Shown: positions 38,961-44,209 of the stretch, one piece after another
Layout: every line of letters begins with the position of its first letter
Position numbering within the stretch: position 1 is the stretch's first letter
From: Mailhella sp.
GTDB taxonomy: Bacteria; Desulfobacterota; Desulfovibrionia; Desulfovibrionales; Desulfovibrionaceae
Reading direction: 5' to 3'
Assembly (NCBI GenBank): GCA_017408905.1
Contig: JAFQTU010000030.1
Location: 1-64,000 of the forward strand
DNA length: 64,000 nt
Made by a program: the position numbers and the translations under genes
Notes under the pieces: model-generated
Seen by the model: the letters and a program-made list of their open reading frames with translations, nothing else
Told to the model about the DNA's origin: nothing
Databases searched by the model: none

Positions 38961-39001
38961 GGAAGTACTCCTGACCAACCATGTTCACAAAGGACTGCCC
39001 T

Positions 39002-39457
39002 ATGAAATACTGGCTCTTCAAGACCGAACCCGGCTGCTTCTCGCTGGACGACCTCATCTTCTCGCCGAACTCCACCACCTCGTGGGACGGCGTGCGCAAC
39101 TTTCAGGCCCGCAACCTCATGCGCTCCATGCAGGTGGGCGACCTCGGCTTCTTCTACCACAGCGGCAAGAACCCGCACATCGCCGCCCTTGTGGAAGTGG
39201 TGCGCGAAGCCTACCCCGACCATACCGCCCAGGACCCGAAGAACCAGCACTACGACGAAAAGGCCACGCCCGAAGACCCGCGCTGGTACATGGTGGACGT
39301 GAAGCTGGTGCGCAAGTTCGCCAAGCCCCTCCCCCTTTCCGACCTGAAGAAGGAAGCGGCCCTCGACGGCATGGAACTTCTGAAGCGCGGAAGCCGCCTC
39401 TCCGTCCAGCCCGTGGAAGAGGAGTATTACAAGCATATCATGAGTATGGTGGAGTGA
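39002..39457 (+). CDS. EVE-domain protein
   Basis: A 151-aa protein consisting of one EVE domain, a PUA-like fold. It starts KYWLFKTEP, has WDGVRNFQARN, YHSGKNPHI and DPRWYMVDV, all family hallmarks. EVE domains bind modified bases in DNA or RNA and occur in restriction and RNA-modification contexts. An AAAGGA site precedes the ATG at 39002. The ankyrin lipoprotein gene begins 10 nt later, and its ribosome site overlaps this gene's end. The base composition is like that of the chromosome. Confidence 0.93.
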   Translation: MKYWLFKTEPGCFSLDDLIFSPNSTTSWDGVRNFQARNLMRSMQVGDLGFFYHSGKNPHIAALVEVVREAYPDHTAQDPKNQHYDEKATPEDPRWYMVDVKLVRKFAKPLPLSDLKKEAALDGMELLKRGSRLSVQPVEEEYYKHIMSMVE

Positions 39458-39467
39458 GGGGAATCTT

Positions 39468-40694
39468 ATGCGCCTTTCCCATATCCTTATGGTCACGATG
39501 ACCATTCTGTCCATATCCGGCTGTATGCCCAAGCAGGAACAGCCCCCTGTTATCGCTACGCCTCCCAATGTTGAGGATGTCGCACACTCCCCGCAGGAAC
39601 TCATGGAGGAGGCGATTTTCAAGCATAGCTTGGAAACTTTTGAAAAACTTTTTGCTGAAAATCCTGATGTCGATAAAAACAGACTTCTGACTCGCGCTAT
39701 AGCAATGGGCCGTCCTGACATCATGAAAATCCTGCTGGATGCTGGAGCTGACCCCAATTACCACCCGGCCGAAGGCAATCCTGAGTTCAATCTGCTATTC
39801 ATCCCCAGCTTTATCCGTCGTATAGAGGTTCCTAAACTCCTAATTGAGTCCGGCACCGATATCCATTTCAGAACCAGTACTGGTCTGACAGCTCTTCATG
39901 CCGCAGCAGAGATGAAGGATGTTGAAAAAGCGGAGCTTCTCATCCGCCATGGAATCAACGTGGATGCTCGTTCTTTAAAGGGCAACACGCCTCTGCATAT
40001 AGCTACAGGCAAAACCTCTACGCTCGACTATCATATAGAAACATATGGCGGAAAAGGCATTATGCTCTCTCCAGAAGAAAAAGAAGAACTCGAACAATAT
40101 CTAAAATCTGAACAGCTTGAGATGGTTTCCATGCTATTGGCCAAAGGTGCGAACCCCAATGCCGCGAACAAAGGCAAGGTCACGCCCCTTCACAGCGCGG
40201 CGAGTTATGGACGCGCACAGGTCGTAAAAAAACTTATCGCTCACAACGCCAACGTAAACCTTTTAGATGGTCAAGGTTGGTCGCCGCTCGAATGGGCTAT
40301 AGCATCTGATAATTTTGAAACCGTACAAGTTTTACTTTCTAATGGTGTTAGCATTAAAAAAACGACCACACCTTATTCAAGTCCCCTTCATGGCGCAGTG
40401 GCTAAAGGAAATCTGAAAATATCCAAGGCTCTCATAGCGTGTGGAGCAGATGTCAATCACCCTATCACGGTTGCAGAAGATGAAAGCAACTTTACCCCCA
40501 TTCACCTTGCCGCAACCAACAATTTTCCTGAGATCGTTGACCTGCTCATCCAGAAAGGTGCTGATGTCACCGTTAAGACCTCAAAAGGACTGACCGTTCT
40601 CGACATCATCAACGAACGCCCTGAACGCATAGAGAAGTTCAAAAAAAGTGGCGTATTCTGGAAAATTAACGACGCACTCTACAATGCTATGTAA
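39468..40694 (+). CDS. ankyrin-repeat lipoprotein
   Basis: A 408-aa protein with a signal peptide and lipobox ISGC (about residue 19). The mature part is built from ankyrin repeats, about seven recognisable, with the helix-turn-helix consensus visible in GLTALHAAAEMKDVEKAELLI, GNTPLHIA, VTPLHSAASYGRAQVVKKLI and FTPIHLAATNN. It is probably a periplasmic binding scaffold. A GTGAGGGG ribosome site overlaps the end of the EVE gene. Codon use is visibly more A+T-rich than flanking genes, suggesting transfer. Ankyrin proteins next to small unknown genes are common in defence and counter-defence islets, but no direct role is shown. Confidence 0.88.
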   Translation: MRLSHILMVTMTILSISGCMPKQEQPPVIATPPNVEDVAHSPQELMEEAIFKHSLETFEKLFAENPDVDKNRLLTRAIAMGRPDIMKILLDAGADPNYHPAEGNPEFNLLFIPSFIRRIEVPKLLIESGTDIHFRTSTGLTALHAAAEMKDVEKAELLIRHGINVDARSLKGNTPLHIATGKTSTLDYHIETYGGKGIMLSPEEKEELEQYLKSEQLEMVSMLLAKGANPNAANKGKVTPLHSAASYGRAQVVKKLIAHNANVNLLDGQGWSPLEWAIASDNFETVQVLLSNGVSIKKTTTPYSSPLHGAVAKGNLKISKALIACGADVNHPITVAEDESNFTPIHLAATNNFPEIVDLLIQKGADVTVKTSKGLTVLDIINERPERIEKFKKSGVFWKINDALYNAM

Positions 40695-40733
40695 GTAAGA
40701 TCTCATCCCATTTTACTTGACAAGGCTGACAGT

Positions 40734-41813
40734 ATGGAAAACAACACCCTTTCTAAACATTTTGTTACCCCTCTTGATGTCCTTCATTATCTCGGCAAGC
40801 AGTCGCCTGATTTATGGAAATATCTTGATGCCTACCGCTATATCTTAATTTCCAAAGAGGACACAAAACAGTACCCTGAAAGCTTCTTCGATAAAGGGCG
40901 CTGTTTCCTTCCCGACGTGGGCTACAGACGCCTTGCAAAGAAAATCTTTCCTCCTGCGACTCCCGTTGAAGAGCAAGTCAGAACGATGGATACCATCGCG
41001 GCAGTTGCGGCATGGCGCCCCAGCATGGATGTCATTAATATTGATGATGACGTACTGATGGCATTACTCGACACCCCCTGTGAAAAAGTTCCTGCCGAAA
41101 TACTTGGACGTCTCCCCTCCTGGAGTATCTATGTAACCATTCCTATGGGGGATTATTTTACTCTCGGAGACGCCCCTATCGCCGGATTCTTTGCCTACTA
41201 CGGCGATCCTATTTACTGGCCGGCAACATCACAAGGAGCTGAACTGCACATCCTGCCTTGGACGTCGAAAGGGCCCCTTTGTGAAAGTGTAGCCCTCTGC
41301 CTTGATTCTGAAACGGTGGCTGACGCCTTGCTTGAGTCCATGCGTCGTAAACTTTCTCAGGAACAGTTCTCTACCCACATGGCTCAACCCGAAATACCCG
41401 AAGCTCACTCCGAGATGTCCAAACTTGCAGGCCGCTTTATTTCCGTTCTTCTGTATATCATTACCCAACATGAAGAACGCCTGAAAAATAATCCTAAAGA
41501 GGCCAAGCTCTGCATCCCCTCTCCTAAACGCACCAAAAATGGCTGGCGGCTATTTCAACCTGACAAGCCTAAACTTTGGAATCTGGGGCAAGAAATCGGA
41601 GAGCAGATTCGTGAAGGGAAAAAGAAAATCAGGCAACATTCCGGCACTCATGAAGGGCCTCGCCCTCACATTCGCCGTGCTCATTGGCACACCTACTGGA
41701 CAGGTCGCCGAGTGTGGAAAGAGGGAGAAACACCAGTTCCACAGACAGCAGAGGCCAAATGGCTACCCCCCATTCCTGTGGCTATGGTCGAAGATGAGTT
41801 ACCAGAGCTTTAA
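40734..41813 (+). CDS. AcrVA2-like protein (putative anti-CRISPR relative)
   Basis: A 359-aa cytoplasmic protein without signal or membrane helix. The C-terminal end (about residues 310-350) contains RPHIRRAHWHTYWTG and then KWLPPIPVAM, the hallmark of AcrVA2 and its relatives. Upstream, AAWRPSMDV, LPSWSIYVTIP and WNLGQEIGEQIR match AcrVA2 segments in order and spacing, as I recall the Moraxella protein (about 322 aa). Known AcrVA2 inhibits type V-A CRISPR by lowering Cas12a expression. Here no cas gene is near, so activity and target are inferred, and relatives exist with unknown roles. A+T-rich like the preceding ankyrin gene, 39 nt away. Confidence 0.75.
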   Translation: MENNTLSKHFVTPLDVLHYLGKQSPDLWKYLDAYRYILISKEDTKQYPESFFDKGRCFLPDVGYRRLAKKIFPPATPVEEQVRTMDTIAAVAAWRPSMDVINIDDDVLMALLDTPCEKVPAEILGRLPSWSIYVTIPMGDYFTLGDAPIAGFFAYYGDPIYWPATSQGAELHILPWTSKGPLCESVALCLDSETVADALLESMRRKLSQEQFSTHMAQPEIPEAHSEMSKLAGRFISVLLYIITQHEERLKNNPKEAKLCIPSPKRTKNGWRLFQPDKPKLWNLGQEIGEQIREGKKKIRQHSGTHEGPRPHIRRAHWHTYWTGRRVWKEGETPVPQTAEAKWLPPIPVAMVEDELPEL

Positions 41814-41972
41814 TTCTCTCCTAGTTCACCTCACGTTCCTACCTCGAGGCTCATCGGCAAACCTCTCTCACTTTCGACAAAATGAGCCCCATTTCTCCCA
41901 TATTTAACAACATACTGCTGACAATTTTTCGACACGAAAAACTTAGACACGTCTAACCTTCCCCTAAAACAC

Positions 41973-42049
41973 CAGAAGGCCGACACCGCACGGAATCTCG
42001 TTCCGGCGGCATCGGCCTTCTCATATGAGGGGGGGGGAAATCATTTCCC
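41973..42049 (-). terminator. double hairpin after fusA-like gene
   Basis: Two inverted repeats lie downstream of the EF-G-like stop on the minus strand. A perfect 9-bp stem (GGGGGAAAT/ATTTCCCCC, 42031-42049) touches an 8-base G run at 42028-42035. Next is AGAAGGCCGA/TCGGCCTTCT with further inner pairing (41973-42020). The T-tract is modest. The convergent Acr-like gene may share it. Confidence 0.6.
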
Positions 42050-42064
42050 CCACGCTCTTTCTTC

Positions 42065-44125
42065 TTATTCAGCGGCCTTGGCGGCTTCGTAAGCGGCCAC
42101 GACCTTATCGACCACGGGCTGGGGAGCTTCTTCGTAGTGGTCGAATTCCATGGTGAAGGTACCCTGGCCGCCGGTCATGGAGCGGAGGTCGGGGGCGTAG
42201 CGGAGCACTTCGCTCATGGGCACATAGACCTTGAGTTCGGTGAGGCCGCCCTGAGAGTCGGAACCGAGCACCTTGCCGCGGCGGGAGGAAAGGTCGCCGA
42301 TAACGTCACCCATATATTCGTCCGGGATGGTCACGGTCATCTGCACCACGGGTTCCAGCAGAACGGTCTTGAGCTGGGCCATAGCGGCCTTGAAGGCAAT
42401 GGAGCCAGCCATCTTGAAGGCCATTTCGGAGGAGTCCACGGTGTGGTAGGAACCGTCGTACACGCGAACCTTGAAGTCCACCACGGGGCAGCCGGCGAGG
42501 TAACCGCGGGCGGCGCTTTCCTGAATGCCCTTGTCGATGGCGGGGATGTACTGGCGGGGGATGACGCCGCCCACAATGCCGTCTTCGAACTGGTAGCCAG
42601 CGCCACGGGGCAGGCCTTCCATTTCGATCCAGCAGTCGCCGAACTGGCCGCGGCCGCCGGACTGCTTCTTATGACGGCCCTGCACCTGCACCTTGCCGCG
42701 CACGGTTTCGCGGTAGGGGATCTTGGGAGCCTTGAGTTCGATATCGACCTTGGAACGGCGGCGGGCCTTTTCCACGGAGATTTCGATATGGAGCTGGCCC
42801 ATGCCGGAGATGAGCACGTCGCCGGTCTCTTCGTCGCGGCTGAGCTTGAGGGTCACGTCTTCGTCGAGGAGCTTCTGCACAGCGGCGAACACCTTGTCTT
42901 CGTCGCCCTTCTGCTTGGGAGCGAGGGCGAAGGAGATGAGCTGGGCGGGAAGTTCGGGAAGTTCGGCTTCGAAGGAGGACTTTTCTTCACCAAGGGTGTC
43001 GCCGGTGCGGGTGGACTTCAGCTTGGCAACGCCAACGATGGCGCCGGGGCCGAGGACGTCCTTGCAGGGAGTCTGGTTCTTGCCGTTCACGTAGATGAGG
43101 GAGCCGAGGCGTTCCATTTCGCCGGTGCGCATATTCTTCAGGGTGGAGTCGGAAGAAATGGTGCCGGAGAGCACGCGGACCATGTTCACCTGACCGGAGA
43201 AGGCGTCGTTCATGGAACGGAACACGAGGCAGGTGGCAGGGCCTTCAGGATCGGCGGCGAGTTCGGAAGCGTCCTTGCCGAGGACGGCGGGGCGGTCGGC
43301 AGGGGAAGGCATGAGGGCGTTGATCTCGTTGAGCAGGCGGCGGCCGCCGGTGTTGTTCACGGAGGAAGCCACGAGCACGGGCACGATTTCGCCGCTCACC
43401 ACACCCTTGCGCAGGCCGAGGGCGATCTCTTCCTCAGTCAGCGTACCTTCTTCGAGGTAGCTGTTCATGAGGTCTTCGTCGGAAGAAGCGATGTTTTCCA
43501 CGGAGGTGTCGCGGAGAAGGATGGCTTCGTCTTCGAGTTCGGCGGGGATGGGCATTTCGGTGGTAGCGCCGTTTTCGCCGAAGCGCAGAGCCTTGCCGGC
43601 GAACACGTCAACGAGGCCCACGAACTGCTCGTTCTCGAGGATGGGCAGGTAGAACACGACGGGGCGAACGCCGAGCTGCTGGGTGAGGCTGTTCAGGGCG
43701 CCGTCGAAGTCGGCACGTTCGCGGTCCATCTTAGTGACCACGGCGATAACGGGAAGGCCGGCGGCCTTCACGCTCTTCCACACGCGGCGCATCTGGGGGC
43801 GGACGCCGTCAACGGCATCGACCACGACGACGGCGCTGTCGGCAGCGGCGAGCAGCCAGTCGATATCGCCGGAGAAGTTGGCGTCGCCGGGGATGTCGAT
43901 GAGGTTATGGTGGCAGTCGTTCCAGTCGAAGGAGGCGAAGCCGGGCTGGATGGAGCCGCGACGCTTGATTTCTTCAGGTTCGTAGTCCAGAGCGGCGGTG
44001 CCTTCTTCGATAGCACCGAGACGGTTGATGATACCGGCCTGGAAGAGAAGCATTTCGGCAAGAGAGGTCTTGCCGCAGCCGCCGGTGCCCACAAGGGCGT
44101 AGGTACGCTGTTTTTCCATGGACAT
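42065..44125 (-). CDS. elongation factor G-like GTPase (EF-G2 type)
   Basis: A 686-aa translational GTPase with all five EF-G domains. G1 is GTGGCGKTS, not the usual AHVDHGKTT. G3 reads DIPGD where EF-G has DTPGH, so the catalytic His is an Asp. G4 is TKMD. The domain IV loop and the C-terminal RGKVLGSD segment are present. This is the divergent EF-G-like group found beside a canonical fusA. Its role could be ribosome recycling or a stress function. ATG at 44125 has GGAG; an upstream in-frame ATG is less likely. Confidence 0.88.
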   Translation of the reverse strand: MSMEKQRTYALVGTGGCGKTSLAEMLLFQAGIINRLGAIEEGTAALDYEPEEIKRRGSIQPGFASFDWNDCHHNLIDIPGDANFSGDIDWLLAAADSAVVVVDAVDGVRPQMRRVWKSVKAAGLPVIAVVTKMDRERADFDGALNSLTQQLGVRPVVFYLPILENEQFVGLVDVFAGKALRFGENGATTEMPIPAELEDEAILLRDTSVENIASSDEDLMNSYLEEGTLTEEEIALGLRKGVVSGEIVPVLVASSVNNTGGRRLLNEINALMPSPADRPAVLGKDASELAADPEGPATCLVFRSMNDAFSGQVNMVRVLSGTISSDSTLKNMRTGEMERLGSLIYVNGKNQTPCKDVLGPGAIVGVAKLKSTRTGDTLGEEKSSFEAELPELPAQLISFALAPKQKGDEDKVFAAVQKLLDEDVTLKLSRDEETGDVLISGMGQLHIEISVEKARRRSKVDIELKAPKIPYRETVRGKVQVQGRHKKQSGGRGQFGDCWIEMEGLPRGAGYQFEDGIVGGVIPRQYIPAIDKGIQESAARGYLAGCPVVDFKVRVYDGSYHTVDSSEMAFKMAGSIAFKAAMAQLKTVLLEPVVQMTVTIPDEYMGDVIGDLSSRRGKVLGSDSQGGLTELKVYVPMSEVLRYAPDLRSMTGGQGTFTMEFDHYEEAPQPVVDKVVAAYEAAKAAE

Positions 44126-44209
44126 ACGAATCTCCACTTGAGTTGAATTTATGATAAGGTTCAGAGGAGGCCGGGCCTCCCCACTGGGTCAATGTCAATC
44201 CAACTCATT

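Follow-up and report, generated by a model that had tools for sequence, protein, structure and literature searches.

The Moraxella bovoculi prophage protein AcrVA2 has been described to recognize the nascent N-terminal sequence LSKT and to trigger the loss of cas12a mRNA (PMC13131331). FinQ, a protein of IncI1 plasmids responsible for fertility inhibition of F, is reported to halt transcription at several points within the F tra operon (PMC8744291). ORF43 of Shewanella phage vB_SbaS_Y11 has been reported to be AcrVA2-like by sequence and modeled fold (PMC10846135). We analyzed a chromosomal gene related to these systems in the window, the whole stretch of 64,000 nucleotides. The gene is an intact ORF with an ATG start. 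An antisense frame was rejected as the true gene of this region, since stops interrupt the opposite strand. The gene and its conserved blocks are as follows:

40734..41813, + strand: AcrVA2/FinQ-family gene (P0001), 359 aa, assigned by homology and AF2 model
41010..41021, + strand: AWRP block, residues 93-96; W94 is invariant in both alignments (30 and 62 sequences)
41112..41135, + strand: LPSWSIYV block, residues 127-134; P128 is invariant in the 30-sequence alignment
41577..41600, + strand: WNLGQEIG block, residues 282-289; G285 is invariant in 62 sequences
41661..41705, + strand: RPHIRRAHWHTYWTG block, residues 310-324; the most conserved stretch of the family
41757..41771, + strand: KWLPP block, residues 342-346; W343 is nearly invariant

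Homology to AcrVA2 and place in the family

The five blocks named in the preliminary description, AWRP, LPSWSIYV, WNLGQEIG, RPHIRRAHWHTYWTG and KWLPP, are all found in the ORF and in the order claimed. In the RPHIRRAHWHTYWTG block, H312, R314, H317, W318 and G324 are invariant in the 62-sequence alignment. The window protein carries all of the near-invariant residues of the family (W94, P120, P128, G151, G285, H312, R314, H317, W318, G324 and W343; 30 to 62 sequences). Searches with it against Pfam, NCBIfam and PADLOC matched no model.

Sequence searches linked the protein to AcrVA2. The AcrVA2 structures 7ci1/7ci2 are its sole match in the PDB (phmmer, E 4e-12). A family profile built from 30 relatives matched 7ci1 only, with an E-value of 1.5e-59, and spans AcrVA2 residues 4-320 of 323. 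The protein also matches the PHROG family phrog_6160 (E 1.9e-42). Structural analysis gave a similar result. An AF2 model was produced from the 62-sequence alignment (pLDDT 84.7, pTM 0.86), and Foldseek placed it with AcrVA2 7ci1/7ci2 (E 1.7e-14, prob 1.00, TM 0.60-0.71). The PDB matches 7ci1_A, 7ci2_A and 7ci1_B all have E-values of about 1e-14 and nothing else is significant, the next match being at E 0.11. In the BFVD, 11 phage proteins match the model with E < 1e-3.

The similarity across the sequence and structure searches indicates that the relationship is not confined to the HWHxYW motif. The preliminary description had proposed a distant chromosomal homologue of AcrVA2 with no CRISPR locus in sight, and had called for a structure prediction in case the likeness ended at that motif. 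The prediction gave a strong match with the HWHxYW block in the same place, and similarity in sequence and structure is near full-length. The window protein is a member of the AcrVA2/FinQ homologous family.

The position of the protein in the family was examined with a quick maximum-likelihood tree of 81 rows. Its deep branches are weakly supported and some end branches are long, so only the pairing described next and the AcrVA2 and FinQ clades are used here. The window protein pairs solely with a relative from a congener, G002, with a support of 99. It falls outside the AcrVA2 clade, in which AcrVA2 groups with the Moraxella phage Mcat5 protein and a M. osloensis plasmid gene, and also outside the IncI1/IncFII FinQ clade. 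These positions suggest that its target, and even its mechanism, may differ from those of AcrVA2 and FinQ.

Genomic setting and distribution in the genus

The gene is located in a low-GC insert with the following organization:

38981..39457, + strand: EVE-domain protein; left flank of the insert, synteny conserved
39458..41973, no strand: low-GC insert between the EVE-domain and fusA2-like genes; right edge approximate
39468..40694, + strand: ankyrin-repeat protein, 408 aa, with a signal peptide and a lipobox-like N-terminus (LSISGC)
41974..42021, no strand: hairpin beyond the fusA2-like 3' end, probably a terminator; bounds the insert on the right
42065..44137, - strand: EF-G-like GTPase (fusA2-like); right flank of the insert, synteny conserved

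The ankyrin gene precedes the AcrVA2/FinQ-like gene by 39 bp and shares its strand. GC3 is 0.48 in the AcrVA2/FinQ-like gene and 0.47 in the ankyrin gene, whereas core genes nearby range from 0.77 to 0.87. An empty site is present in eight congeners, where a M16C protease, a small ORF and the EVE gene on the left adjoin the fusA2-like gene and trmFO on the right, and both insert genes are missing. The gap between the EVE and fusA2-like genes is about 140 to 470 bp in these congeners and 2.6 kb in the window. Similar hairpins are found in congeners at the matching place beyond the fusA2-like 3' end. Foreign composition and the empty site in relatives indicate that the AcrVA2/FinQ-like gene was horizontally acquired. 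The earlier suggestion that it was left by a mobile element is supported to that extent, but no mobile-element genes remain: no integrase or transposase was seen within the insert, and no flanking repeat or target-site duplication was found at its edges. The ankyrin gene was considered as a fixed partner and rejected, since a 66% identical orthologue in genome G018 has no AcrVA2-like gene beside it. This ankyrin lipoprotein gene (L157, 4755-5981) is separated by 15 bp from a preceding hsdR-like gene of type I restriction and is followed by a transposase-like ORF.

The AcrVA2/FinQ-like gene is present in three of the 19 genomes of the genus, in three different places. This sporadic presence rules out a core host gene, the form in which a host protein with another job had been considered. 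The copies in G002 and G008 flank opposite sides of one nitroreductase-DUF368-hemN-gluQ block. Their dN of 0.036 and dS of 0.328 (dN/dS about 0.11) indicate that they are maintained by selection.

In both genomes (G002, L016, C137; G008, L017, C124), a Fic gene with a HPFLEGNGR motif stops 10 bp before the start of the relative. The Fic gene and the relative lie on different sides of the gene block in the two genomes, as if they had moved together. This arrangement raises the question of a toxin-control unit, in which the relative may hold down expression of the paired Fic toxin. The 10 bp spacing in G002 and G008 is consistent with such a unit, as is purifying selection on the Fic gene as well as on the relative. 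However, a search of the window's genome, G000, which lacked a positive control, gave no Fic match, and the other loci examined showed no Fic motif. The window copy neighbors the ankyrin lipoprotein gene instead of Fic, and the genes next to most of the plasmid and phage members are unrelated. We consider toxin control very improbable. Fic pairing as a trait of the family was rejected, being confined to the two congeners.

As in the preliminary description, no Cas12a gene was found in the window, and no Cas12a match was obtained elsewhere in G000 in a search whose positive control did not work. Cas12a was likewise not matched in any of 149 genomes of its bacterial family or of 11 genomes holding relatives, with the positive controls silent in both sets. 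None of these controls exceeded the cut-off and none was a genome known to hold Cas12a, so that Cas12a is to be read as 'not found' rather than 'absent'. Cas1 was not found in G000, and the control for this search worked.

These searches bear on the possibility that the window protein is a true anti-Cas12a protein, which still recognizes the Cas12a N-terminus and arrived on a phage or plasmid that elsewhere encounters hosts with Cas12a. Homology to AcrVA2 is near full-length, and the AcrVA2.1 orthologue inhibited MbCas12a as well (PMC7556299). Against this possibility stand the three Cas12a searches, with their silent controls, the result for Cas1, and the tree, which sets the window protein apart from AcrVA2. 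We regard an anti-Cas12a function as improbable, and Cas12a as an unlikely target of the window protein.

FinQ and the breadth of the family

FinQ belongs to the same family. It matches AcrVA2 in the PDB directly (E 3.8e-17) and the window protein by BLASTP (E 1e-21), and its match to phrog_6160 is strong, like that of the window protein. Searches with FinQ against Pfam and NCBIfam returned no model and its PADLOC match is marginal. The reading of the window gene as an AcrVA2-family member thus stands on homology, but the family is not solely anti-Cas12a, since a plasmid protein that inhibits the expression of F transfer genes belongs to it too. We found no paper in the open PMC literature that names both AcrVA2 and FinQ; the AcrVA2 preprint 10.1101/2022.11.29.518452 may already note the link.

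Relatives are widespread on mobile elements. With tblastn, 597 plasmid records were found, 507 of them predicted to be conjugative, together with 61 phage records; 98 viral contigs in IMG/VR also contain a relative. About 500 of the 597 plasmid records are from Escherichia, Salmonella, Shigella or Klebsiella. In a set of rows sampled evenly along the ranking, nearly all of these enterobacterial records carry a FinQ annotation. On IncI1 plasmids finQ adjoins trbA-trbC. A family member in Erwinia phage RisingSun (H114, 128416-129138) is annotated as 'putative mycothiosynthase' and looks misannotated.

A family-wide conserved gene partner was sought and rejected, as neighbors vary from locus to locus. 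Several of them are related to counter-defense. On Thermus aquaticus p61 (L160, 2138-4023), the annotated gene immediately upstream of the family member is STIV-B116-like; we take its product to belong to the family of the ring nuclease AcrIII-1. ArdC is found near family members on other plasmids, and so is ArdK. In Moraxella phage Mcat5, the accession of which was taken from PMC7556299, AcrIF14 is two genes downstream of the family member. Two further arrangements were observed. A lone Cas6e-like gene is directly upstream of the family member on an Acinetobacter baumannii plasmid (L039, 1967-3771). On a Thioflavicoccus plasmid (L035, 1-4011), the BREX genes pglZ and brxL, a small ORF and the family member follow one another on one strand.

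Proposed action and comparison with known systems

We propose that the window protein is a horizontally acquired, trans-acting silencer guided by nascent peptides, and that its target is a competitor or defense gene rather than Cas12a. We think this reading probable, with considerable room for doubt. The protein would recognize a short N-terminal stretch of the nascent peptide of its target on the ribosome. Recognition would lead to the loss of the mRNA of one specific gene in trans, as has been described for the action of AcrVA2 on cas12a. This gene probably belongs to a competing mobile element or to a defense system. No nuclease fold was found among the Foldseek matches of the AF2 model, so destruction of the RNA would probably need a host partner.

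An mRNA-lowering mechanism is what we infer from the studied relatives. FinQ lowers F tra transcripts in trans, as AcrVA2 does cas12a mRNA, which we count in favor of silencing. The membership of FinQ in the family suggests that the gene silenced by the window protein is probably a competitor or defense gene other than Cas12a. Homology and fold, spread on mobile elements, counter-defense neighbors, the foreign insert and selective constraint are also counted for this reading. Against it, the effect of FinQ has been attributed to premature termination of transcription instead of mRNA decay, and the window protein falls outside both the AcrVA2 and the FinQ clades in a tree with weak deep branches.

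The protein might instead inhibit a finished target protein, for example by blocking a conjugation or defense protein, and not act via mRNA. AcrVA2 was crystallized also with an internal Cas12a peptide, residues 618-634 (7CI2; PMC13131331), so that a peptide might be bound with no loss of mRNA, and the result on nuclease folds fits this type of inhibitor as well. However, both studied members, AcrVA2 and FinQ, have been described as lowering the transcripts of their targets. We judge the binding of a finished protein unlikely, although less so than an anti-Cas12a function, and retain the nascent-peptide-guided silencer as the preferred reading.

FinQ and AcrVA2 may share one mechanism. In a wider proposal, they are two faces of one widespread family of nascent-peptide-guided mRNA silencers that serve in conflicts of mobile elements with each other's kind and with their hosts, in which each member would target the N-terminus of a different protein and the window protein is one such member; the effect of FinQ on F tra would then be translation-coupled mRNA loss rather than transcription termination. 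We offer this proposal tentatively, with somewhat less than even confidence. LSKT-like motifs were searched for in the N-termini of F Tra proteins as a hint to the FinQ target. This approach was rejected, since there was one weak match (TrbB, LTKS), which is at chance level.

Taken alone, the window gene is one more uncharacterized relative of AcrVA2, and it is the kinship of FinQ and AcrVA2 that is of wider interest. The label 'anti-CRISPR' is too narrow for a family that holds FinQ. No molecular account of the FinQ block of F transfer was found in the literature covered. If FinQ works like AcrVA2, a decades-old question becomes testable by standard E. coli genetics. In that case, the several hundred plasmid and phage members would be natural gene-specific silencers with targets that could be sought.

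The window protein resembles AcrVA2 of the M. bovoculi prophage (PDB 7CI1, 7CI2) in fold, block order and near full-length homology. They differ in that the window gene is chromosomal, falls in a separate clade and has no Cas12a found in its host, and only about one quarter of its residues are identical to those of the Mcat5 orthologue. ORF43 of vB_SbaS_Y11 is reported to be AcrVA2-like, as the window protein is, but it is a gene of a phage, whereas the window gene is chromosomal. The family phrog_6160 is strongly matched by the window protein and FinQ alike; unlike these proteins, it is a sequence family without assigned function. FinQ is homologous to the window protein, and its RPHIRRxHWHTYWTG and WLPPxPV blocks are almost identical to those of the latter. 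In contrast to the window gene, finQ lies next to trbABC on conjugative plasmids and belongs to a separate clade, and its product affects the expression of F tra.
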